Positions 50,851 to 53,150 of a stretch of 64,000 nt of DNA are shown here, one piece after another. This DNA comes from Streptomyces sp. NRRL F-6676. Lineage in GTDB: Bacteria; Actinomycetota; Actinomycetes; Streptomycetales; Streptomycetaceae. Within the stretch, counting starts at the first letter, position 1. Every line of letters starts with the position of its first letter. The notes beneath the pieces are model-generated. The model ran no database searches, was not told where the DNA came from, and was given only the letters and a program-made list of their open reading frames with translations. The stretch spans positions 62,001-126,000 of the forward strand of contig NZ_JOHS01000009.1 of NCBI RefSeq assembly GCF_000725625.1, written 5' to 3'. Both the position numbers and the translations under genes were made by a program.

Positions 50851-52002
50851 ATGACTCCCACGACGGAGACCACGGTCGGTGTCGGCGGCGCCGCGGAGAG
50901 CACCGACATGGTGCTCAACATCGGCCCCCAGCACCCCTCCACGCACGGCGTGCTGCGGCTGCGCCTCGTACTGGACGGCGAGCGGATCCTGAGCGCCGAG
51001 CCGGTGATCGGCTATATGCACCGGGGCGCCGAGAAGCTGTTCGAGGCGCGCGACTACCGCCAGATCATCGTGCTCGCCAACCGCCACGACTGGCTGTCGG
51101 CCTTCGCCAACGAACTGGGCGTCGTCCTCGCCGTCGAACGGATGCTCGGCATGGAGGTCCCCGGCCGCGCGGTCTGGATCCGCACGCTGCTCGCGGAGCT
51201 GAACCGGGTGCTCAACCACCTGATGTTCCTCGGTTCCTACCCGCTGGAGCTCGGCGGCATCACGCCGATGTTCTACGCGTTCCGGGAGCGCGAGGAGATC
51301 CAGCACGTCATGGAGGAGGTCTCCGGCGGCCGGCTGCACTACATGTTCAACCGGGTCGGCGGCCTCAAGGAGGACCTGCCCGCCGGATGGACCACGCGCG
51401 CGCGTGCCGCCGTCGCCGCCGTCCGCTCCCGCATGGACGTCTACGACGACCTGGTCCTCGGCAACGAGATCTTCCGCGGCCGTACGCGCGGGGTCGGCGT
51501 CCTGGCGCCCGAGGCCGTGCACGCCTACGGGGTGAGCGGCCCCATCGCGCGCGCGTCCGGGGTCGACTTCGACCTGCGGCGGGACGAGCCCTACCTGGCG
51601 TACGGGGAGCTCCAGGACGTCCTGAAGGTCGTCACCCGGGACGAGGGCGACTGCCTGGCCCGCTTCGAGTGCCTGCTGGAGCAGACCCACAACGCCCTCG
51701 GCCTCGCCGACGCCTGCCTGGACCGGCTCGCCGAGCTGCCGCCCGGCCCGGTCAACCAGCGCCTGCCCAAGGTGCTCAAGGCCCCCGAGGGCCACACCTA
51801 CGCCTGGACCGAGAACCCGCTCGGGATCAACGGCTACTACCTGGTCAGCAAGGGCGACAAGACGCCGTACCGGCTCAAGCTGCGCTCGGCCTCGTACAAC
51901 AACATCCAGGCGCTCACCGAACTGCTCCCGGGGACGCTGGTCGCGGACATGGTGGCCATCCTGGGGTCGATGTTCTTCGTGGTCGGCGACATCGACAAGT
52001 AG
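50851..52002 (+). CDS. Orphan NuoD-like protein (complex I 49-kDa family)
   Basis: 383 residues. Clear homologue of the quinone-site subunit Nuo[19 protein letters not shown], then [16 protein letters not shown] with Arg58, [19 protein letters not shown], and [17 protein letters not shown]. It is shorter than the operon-encoded NuoD (about 440 residues) and stands alone, with no other nuo genes in the window. Convergent with it is a MidA/NDUFAF7-family methyltransferase. In mitochondria NDUFAF7 dimethylates the Arg of HRGTEKL in NDUFS2; the same Arg is present here. It could be a spare complex I subunit, a partner in a reduced hydrogenase-like complex, or an assembly factor. Confidence 0.9.
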
Positions 52003-52026
52003 GGCGGTACGCGGAAACCGTGCTCC

Positions 52027-53109
52027 TTAAAGGGGCACGTCCGCGATTCCGGCCGGCTGGAGCAGCCACCCGAAGTCGCCGAGACCGCCCGGGGCCGTCA
52101 GCTCGGCGGCCTCGCCGGCCGACGCCAGGGCGCGTACGTACGCCGCCGGGTCGGTGGTGGCCAGGGCGAGCGGGGGACGGGCGCCGGTGACGCCCAGGGC
52201 GCGCAGTGCCTCCCGCTGGGGCAGCAGCCGGGCGCCGGGGCCCGCGCAGGCGTCCAGGGCGACGTGCGCGGTGAGGTCGTGGCCGCCGTCGGGCACGGGG
52301 CGCGTCTCGCGGCCCGCCCGGAACCCGGTGAGGGTCCCGAAGGGCGGACGGGCGTCCCTGGTGTGCGCGTAGTCGACGGCGACGGCCAGCCCCCGGCCGA
52401 GCGAGGCGACGGCCGAGGCCCAGGCGGCGTCCCGGGGCAGCCCGATCTCGGCACGCAGACCCGCCTCCACGCGTGGCCCCGCCTCGTCGAGCGCGTCCGC
52501 CTCGGCGGGCAGCCCTCCACGCGCGCGTGGGCCCTCGCCCGCCGGCAGCGGCCACCACCGCTCCAGCCACTCCGCCTCCGGGCCGGTGACGGGTTCCCCG
52601 AGCCGTTCGGTGCCGTCCCGCCGTACGAGGACCCGGCGCCGTACCCCCGCCGCGTCCGTCTCCGCCACGTCCACGGGCACGTTGTCGAGCCACTCGTTGG
52701 CGAACAGCAGCCCGGTGACGCCCTCGGGGGGCGCGGTCAGCCATGTGACGCGGGGGTCGAGCCCCCCGGGACGGCCGGCGATCTCGACGGCGTACACGCG
52801 CGTGCGGGTCGCGAGCTCCCCGGGGAGCGCGGCGAGGACACCGGCGGCCAGTTCCCCGCGGCCGGCCGCCATGTCGACGAAGGCCAGTTCGGCGGGGCGG
52901 CCCAGCGCCGTGTCGACCCGGGCGAGCAGCCGGGCCACGGCGGCCGCGTAGAGCGGCGAGGCGTGTACGGACGTACGGAAGTGTCCGGCGGGCCCCTCGG
53001 GCCCCTGGCGCCGGTAGAAGCCCTCCGGCCCGTACAGGGCCTCCTGGGCGGCTTCCCGCCACCCCTGCCACTCGGGCCCGGGTCCCTCGTCCGCCGCTTC
53101 CTCGCTCAC
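52027..53109 (-). CDS. MidA/NDUFAF7-family SAM-dependent methyltransferase
   Basis: 360 residues. The COG1565 pattern is clear: [20 protein letters not shown] near the N-terminus, SAM motif [14 protein letters not shown] at about 77-90, and the diagnostic [12 protein letters not shown] at about 136-145 (family: ANEFFDALP). Eukaryotic members methylate an arginine in the NuoD-type subunit and are needed for complex I assembly. The neighbour on the other side is an orphan NuoD, convergent by 24 bases. TAGCCT (53116-53121) lies 6 bases before GTG 53109, which I therefore prefer to GTG 53115. Confidence 0.85.
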
Positions 53110-53150
53110 CCGCACAGGCTATGTGCCTCCGCGTGCGCGGCCGGGGCCGG

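Follow-up and report, generated by a model that had tools for sequence, protein, structure and literature searches.

The window analyzed here is a stretch of 64,000 nucleotides from the genome of Streptomyces sp. NRRL F-6676. It contains two neighboring genes, nuoD2 and a midA-like gene, and it is probable that NuoD2 is the displaced NuoD subunit of a second, 11-subunit-type complex I (the nuo2 complex) and that its MidA neighbor is the maturation enzyme that would dimethylate it at Arg58. The evidence comprises the homology of the two products, the co-occurrence and proximity of their genes, a reciprocal residue switch, and relatives of NuoD2 and MidA that lie in operons.

The convergent gene pair and NuoD2

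The original prediction, made from the DNA letters of the window, was of a convergent NuoD/MidA pair 24 bases apart in which the NuoD has an arginine at position 58. The coordinates (Table 1) and the Pfam scores of both products confirmed it. NuoD2 gave 237 bits with Complex1_49kDa (PF00346; cut-off 24), and the product of the midA-like gene gave 58.1 bits with Methyltransf_28 (PF02636; cut-off 23.3). An alternative start of the midA-like gene is possible at an in-frame GTG at 53109, which matches the end given originally.

Table 1. Positions of the genes and residues discussed in the text (window coordinates, except for the nuo2 cluster)
Feature	Position	Strand	Description
nuoD2	50851..52002	+	ATG start 50851, stop 52002, 383 aa; probable Q-module subunit of nuo2 complex I
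His32 codon	50944..50946	+	Counterpart of Thermus Nqo4 His38, which binds quinone (aligned to 2fug chain 4)
Arg58 codon cgg, HRG motif	51022..51024	+	Corresponds to NDUFS2 Arg85, Yarrowia R121, Thermus Nqo4 Thr64 (sequence, alignments)
Trp81 codon	51091..51093	+	Replaces quinone-binding Tyr87 of Thermus Nqo4 (alignment)
Intergenic gap	52003..52026	.	24 bases between convergent nuoD2 and midA-like gene (sequence)
midA-like gene	52027..53115	-	GTG start 53115, 362 aa; MidA/NDUFAF7-family SAM-dependent methyltransferase
MidA motif ANEWLDNVP	52675..52701	-	Translation
SAM-binding loop, 14 residues	52840..52881	-	Translation
nuo2 cluster A2 B2 C2 H2 I2 J2 K2 L2 M2 N2	contig C10, ~93-103 kb		NADH module and NuoD missing

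With more specific models, NuoD2 exceeded the cut-off of NCBIfam NF004739 (378.3 bits; cut-off 360) and fell under those of TIGR01962 (389.5; 459.35) and NF008974 (397.2; 522). It also fell below the cut-off of the model for FpoD of F420H2 dehydrogenase, NF040602 (318.3; 600). The best-matching solved structures were complex I NuoD/Nqo4/NDUFS2 chains. NuoD2 is 37% identical to NuoD1, the NuoD of the nuo operon in the same genome. In a tree, the 48 detached NuoD2 rows from the class lay on one side of a branch with support of 100/100, and the NuoD1 rows fell on another branch; several detached NuoD2 rows had long branches. When NuoD2 was examined for the quinone-binding pair of Thermus (H38 and Y87), the His was present (H32) and the Tyr was exchanged for Trp81. 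Because Trp stands in place of the quinone Tyr, the electron acceptor of NuoD2 or its binding mode may differ. Across the NuoD2 alignment the quinone His is mostly kept.

Co-occurrence and proximity in the Actinomycetes

Among the matches listed for 148 Actinomycetes genomes, NuoD2 and MidA were both present in 59, NuoD2 only in 8, MidA only in 5, and neither in 76 (Fisher p 4.9e-26); this and the other co-occurrence tables count genomes as independent although they are not. The two lay on the same contig in 52 of the 59 genomes with both, and the gap between the matches ranged from 151 to 10,987 bases with a median of 2.2 kb. The original prediction depended on adjacency reaching beyond close relatives, and the pairing did indeed hold across many families. 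Orientation was codirectional with MidA upstream in 42 of these 52, convergent in 9 (all from the genus of the window), and divergent in 1. Up to 20 kb of sequence was read in 40 of the 64 genomes with MidA; NuoD2 was included in 39 of these stretches, and in G064 it lay 11 kb away. A test within the families that vary gave a weaker association (both 19, NuoD2 only 5, MidA only 2, neither 10; p 8e-4). One such family, f17, had five genomes with both genes and five with neither.

The 13 exceptions to the class table were examined one by one. The MidA of G128 had been missed by the first search; it scored 345 bits with a profile of its relatives (A1, described below), of which it is itself a row. 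G020 has a piece of MidA at a contig edge, and G023 and G076 have pieces of NuoD2 beside MidA. The contig stops within ~3 kb of MidA in G014, G069, and G108, and ~5 kb from NuoD2 in G015. In G097 (locus L153) NuoD2 is broken, with an internal stop and pieces in several frames; this genome is 77% complete, and neither MidA nor NuoB was found in it. In the remaining four (G083, G116, G127, and G137) panC lies ~1.1 kb away from NuoD2, and no MidA was found in the stretch with the A1 profile at E <= 10.

A contig scan yielded 80 Streptomyces-type loci, all Streptomyces by name except one Streptantibioticus and one "Actinobacteria bacterium". MidA was near NuoD2, at 4.2 kb or less, in 76 of them, and the remaining four were cut by a contig edge just behind nuoD2. 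The 76 pairs were convergent in 64 cases, codirectional in 11, and otherwise arranged in 1. In L077, L080, L108, and L160 the stop and start of midA and nuoD2 overlap when the starts chosen by script are used. The conserved block around the pair includes panC and nadB. Since the pair lies in this generally conserved block, part of the closeness of NuoD2 and MidA reflects inherited gene order.

Co-occurrence in the rest of the phylum

In a sample of 198 genomes from the phylum, the analyst delimited the NuoD2 clade by an E value of about 1e-99 or lower, and the Arg and Trp positions were read in fetched loci only. Among the matches listed, both proteins were present in 57 genomes, NuoD2 only in 22, MidA only in 9, and neither in 110 (p 6e-22). 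Removing the 17 class members named among the matches listed left 47, 22, 9, and 103. The two genes were on the same contig in 28 of the 47 non-class genomes with both, within 15 kb in 26. Of these 28 pairs, 14 were convergent, 13 had MidA downstream of NuoD2, and 1 was divergent.

A PF02636 protein was not found, among the matches listed, in 22 of the 79 NuoD2-clade genomes of the sample. Because these are 22 of the 69 NuoD2-bearing genomes outside the class, the link between NuoD2 and MidA is looser there. Seven of them (G156, G194, G226, G236, G276, G286, and G296) were read, and all seven keep the Arg; we conclude that Arg in NuoD2 does not require MidA. A strict rule of "no MidA, no Arg" was thereby ruled out. 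Conversely, nine genomes had MidA without a NuoD2 of the clade; NuoD was read in seven of them and had HR in six and HT in one (G232). The original idea of a dedicated pair thus stands in so far as the two proteins co-occur and NuoD2 is the only NuoD found in the genome of the window that could be methylated at the site, and it is qualified by the 22 clade genomes in which the enzyme family was not found.

In other classes of the phylum, NuoD2 was located within an A2 B2 C2 D2 H2-N2 run in 16 of 20 stretches containing NuoD; one of these runs was cut by the contig edge, and many were located behind nuo1. In 4 of the 16 runs midA followed nuoN2. Three of the other stretches contained a Tyr-type NuoD in a different nuo cluster. 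G193 had nuoD2 without a nuo2 cluster, with midA ~7 kb off. In this genome (L324) and in G275 (L374), both from another class, NuoD2 and MidA were near each other with no other nuo2 genes in the stretch; in G275 they are convergent with ~60 bases between the aligned ends. This arrangement is possibly a second, independent detachment of the two genes as a pair.

An alternative explanation is that the genes are adjacent through inherited gene order and that the MidA homolog acts on something else, either a metabolite or a protein other than NuoD2. The conservation of the panC/nadB block nearby, the four class genomes that have panC beside NuoD2 and no MidA, the 22 clade genomes of the phylum sample without MidA, and the divergence of actinomycete MidA (see below) would all fit it. 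We nevertheless consider this explanation unlikely. MidA is missing where NuoD2 is missing, as in family f17, and the two genes stay together while their relative orientation flips. In other classes, moreover, midA follows nuoN2 in four loci, half of the same-contig pairs are convergent, and six of the seven NuoD proteins read from MidA genomes without a clade NuoD2 bear the Arg.

The midA-like methyltransferase

The translation of the midA-like gene contains both marks on which the original family assignment was based, the SAM loop and ANEWLDNVP. Its product is the sole PF02636 protein found in the genome of the window. A profile of 30 relatives (A1) searched against all solved structures matched 4f3n (5e-30), 1zkd (2.1e-24), and 5ztz, the Dictyostelium NDUFAF7 homolog (6e-19); the first structure outside the MidA family was Hen1, at only 0.059. 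An AlphaFold2 model of the protein was of moderate quality (pLDDT 79.9). With this model, the top six Foldseek matches were MidA chains (E 1.5e-16 to 7.8e-14; TM normalized to the query 0.56-0.63). Judged by profile and by predicted fold, the methyltransferase of the window belongs to the MidA family.

Actinomycete members of the family are divergent, with PF02636 E values of 3.6e-22 at best and 2.0e-14 for the window protein, vs. up to 1.1e-60 in other classes. In the SAM loop, G87 is conserved in at least 90% of the 30 A1 rows, and the loop glycines vary in some members. This variation and the sequence divergence would suit a purely non-catalytic assembly chaperone for NuoD2, a role that we regard as quite improbable for the MidA homolog: D81, G85, and G87 are invariant in 24 of 24 rows of an alignment of nearer relatives (A3), and E141, L143, and D144 of the ANEWLDNVP region are invariant in all 30 A1 rows.

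The second complex I

The genome of the window (G000; 8.1 Mb in 166 contigs) has two NuoD homologs and two NuoB homologs. Of the two NuoB genes, one belongs to the ordinary nuo operon and the other to the second cluster on contig C10 (Table 1). The A2 B2 C2 H2-N2 genes on C10 and NuoD2 in the window make up the set of an 11-subunit complex I, from which E, F, and G are absent. In this genome a gene for an M48-family peptidase lies directly after nuoN2 (L010, 17407-18270). The original description of NuoD2 as "stand-alone" is therefore accurate at the locus and does not extend to the genome, where two NuoD, two NuoB, and a nuo2 cluster without NuoD are present. The candidate reading of NuoD2 as a stand-alone enzyme was dropped when this cluster was found. 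We read NuoD2 as a displaced subunit of the nuo2 complex and not as an independent protein.

No NuoD was found in twenty further stretches around second NuoB genes; the complete ten-gene order was present in nine of them, and the others were contig-cut, incomplete, or reduced. The tandem Cys is kept in the NuoB2 of 21 of 21 clusters, and both four-cysteine motifs are kept in the 19 of 19 NuoI2 proteins read there. A second NuoB tracks NuoD2 among the 148 class genomes (both 65, NuoD2 only 2, second NuoB only 7, neither 74), where a second NuoB means at least two NuoB matches or, in G128, a single NuoB of the NuoB2 type. G128 (L146, L282) is rated 100% complete and has nuo2 and NuoD2; NuoD1 and NuoB1 were not found in it, and its only complex I may be the second one.

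The residue switch

Excerpts of a study of Yarrowia complex I describe an inter-subunit switch: Yarrowia has Arg in NDUFS2 and Thr in NDUFS7, Thermus has Thr in Nqo4 and Arg83 in Nqo6, and the two arginines occupy the same space (PMC8042128). From this switch we drew the expectation of Arg in NuoB1 and Thr in NuoB2, which was written down alongside the first tests. NuoD2 has Arg at the HRG site and Trp at the quinone position in 52 of 52 loci. Housekeeping NuoD1 has Thr and Tyr, respectively, in 30 of 30 loci, from 30 genomes of which six are without NuoD2. On the NuoB side, all 21 NuoB1 loci have Arg. Every NuoB2 read has Thr, both in the 51 loci of the class, which come from 43 genomes and of which two were assigned by visual inspection, and in the 16 operon loci from elsewhere in the phylum. 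Outside the class, the three clusters with a Tyr-type NuoD likewise have Thr in NuoB, and HR in that NuoD. Thus, in the sequence of every locus read, the switch is reciprocal, with NuoD2 Arg and NuoB2 Thr vs. NuoD1 Thr and NuoB1 Arg.

Despite the location of their genes on different contigs, NuoD2 and NuoB2 are linked by the switch. Because the housekeeping NuoD has Thr, NuoD2 is the only NuoD found in the genome of the window that is methylatable at this position, and the absence from NuoD1 of an arginine to methylate would explain why MidA accompanies NuoD2 alone. A rival reading is that NuoD2 substitutes for NuoD1 in the housekeeping enzyme. In its favor, all other subunits are available from nuo1, and an antiporter-subunit exchange between sets is proposed for Streptomyces NuoL2/NuoM2 in excerpts of PMC3765725 and PMC8388888. 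This reading is very improbable, because an Arg of NuoD2 facing the Arg of NuoB1 would break the reciprocal switch, NuoD2 lies inside the nuo2 operon in other classes, and a second NuoB tracks NuoD2.

Genomes in which NuoH2 was not found

Twenty-two genomes picked from the NuoD2 set were searched for a second NuoH and a second NuoI. Seven had a second NuoH, with 71-94% identity to the query, and in the other 15 none was found; a second NuoI was present in 21. Fourteen genomes from seven families (f5, f12, f14, f27, f28, f32, and f38) have a second NuoI and NuoB, NuoD2, and MidA, with no NuoH2 found. In the fifteenth genome without NuoH2, G070, a second NuoI was not found either. The NuoI2 match begins at residue 1 in all seven genomes with NuoH2; in the 14 without it, it begins at residue 19-28 in 13 and at residue 9 in G047.

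In five f14 genomes (L283, L284, L291, L292, and L293) only B2 C2 I2 are left of the nuo2 cluster. A gene for a CorA-like Mg2+ transporter lies behind these genes, identified by Pfam in three of the genomes and by similarity in all five. On the basis of gene content, with NuoH as the membrane subunit searched genome-wide and C2 read in the five f14 genomes of the 14, the genomes without NuoH2 suggest a Q-module freed from its membrane arm.

Discussion

We propose that MidA meets newly made NuoD2 and, by analogy with mitochondria and Paracoccus, would dimethylate its Arg58, next to Fe-S cluster N2. The marked NuoD2 would then join NuoB2, NuoC2, and NuoI2 to form the Q-module around cluster N2, and the dimethylation would help to assemble the nuo2 Q-module. 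The housekeeping complex I would need no such enzyme, since its arginine comes from NuoB1, as in Thermus, and the NuoD1 residue is Thr.

Among the closest known systems is the dimethylation of NDUFS2 Arg85 by NDUFAF7, which excerpts of PMC3829151 describe as required for assembly. The present pair resembles it, and Dictyostelium MidA, in the enzyme family as judged by profile and fold, and in the target Arg, which in both cases lies in the HRG motif of a NuoD/NDUFS2-family subunit. It differs from NDUFAF7-NDUFS2 in being bacterial and specific to a second complex I, in the location of the enzyme gene beside nuoD2 or behind nuoN2, and in its divergent sequence; methylation is here putative. According to the parts of PMC3750175 available, Nqo4 of Paracoccus denitrificans carries symmetric dimethylation at this arginine, and the E. 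coli protein has the Arg in unmodified form. Like Paracoccus Nqo4, NuoD2 is a bacterial NuoD with arginine at the methylated site, as seen from sequence; unlike the Paracoccus case, the genome has two NuoD proteins, one with the Arg and one with Thr at the site. An excerpt of a review states that alpha-proteobacterial homologs are thought to methylate NuoD also (PMC9006661), and the arginine is described as stabilizing cluster N2 in the available parts of PMC8042128.

The gene content, A-D and H-N without NuoE/F/G, is like that of the 11-subunit complex I described in excerpts of PMC11238625. The differences are that NuoD2 is detached and paired with MidA, that Trp replaces the quinone Tyr, and that in some families there is apparently no membrane arm. 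The originally claimed novelty of the pair holds in part. Neither a midA gene next to nuoD2 nor a MidA-NuoD link in actinobacteria was described in the papers found by a search of the open-licence literature; the position of Streptomyces nuoD2 apart from the nuo2 genes (PMC3765725, PMC8388888) and the Paracoccus methylation were already published. These two Streptomyces papers deal with the genes discussed here, in the genus of the window; in the parts of them that were available, the methyltransferase and the residue switch are not mentioned.

More tentatively, and as a picture that may well not hold, actinobacteria with two complex I types would differ between these types at N2, the housekeeping enzyme being of the Thermus type and the second Q-module, in need of its own MidA, of the mitochondrial type. 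In genomes of seven families the membrane arm would have been shed, leaving NuoB2C2D2I2-MidA as a free redox module with a function other than proton pumping. The genomes without NuoH2 point to such a Q-module without a membrane arm.

A bacterium with two complexes I and a methylatable arginine in only one of them is a tractable system. Because of this difference, a single midA deletion could separate the effects of methylation from those of complex I itself; the role of the methylation in its own right is still an open question for the mitochondrial enzyme, as stated in an excerpt of PMC8042128. The presence of NuoD2 with an adjacent midA in Streptomyces and many other actinobacteria makes this proposed bacterial maturation step easy to test. 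If it is confirmed, the NDUFAF7-type maturation step would reach beyond Proteobacteria and mitochondria.
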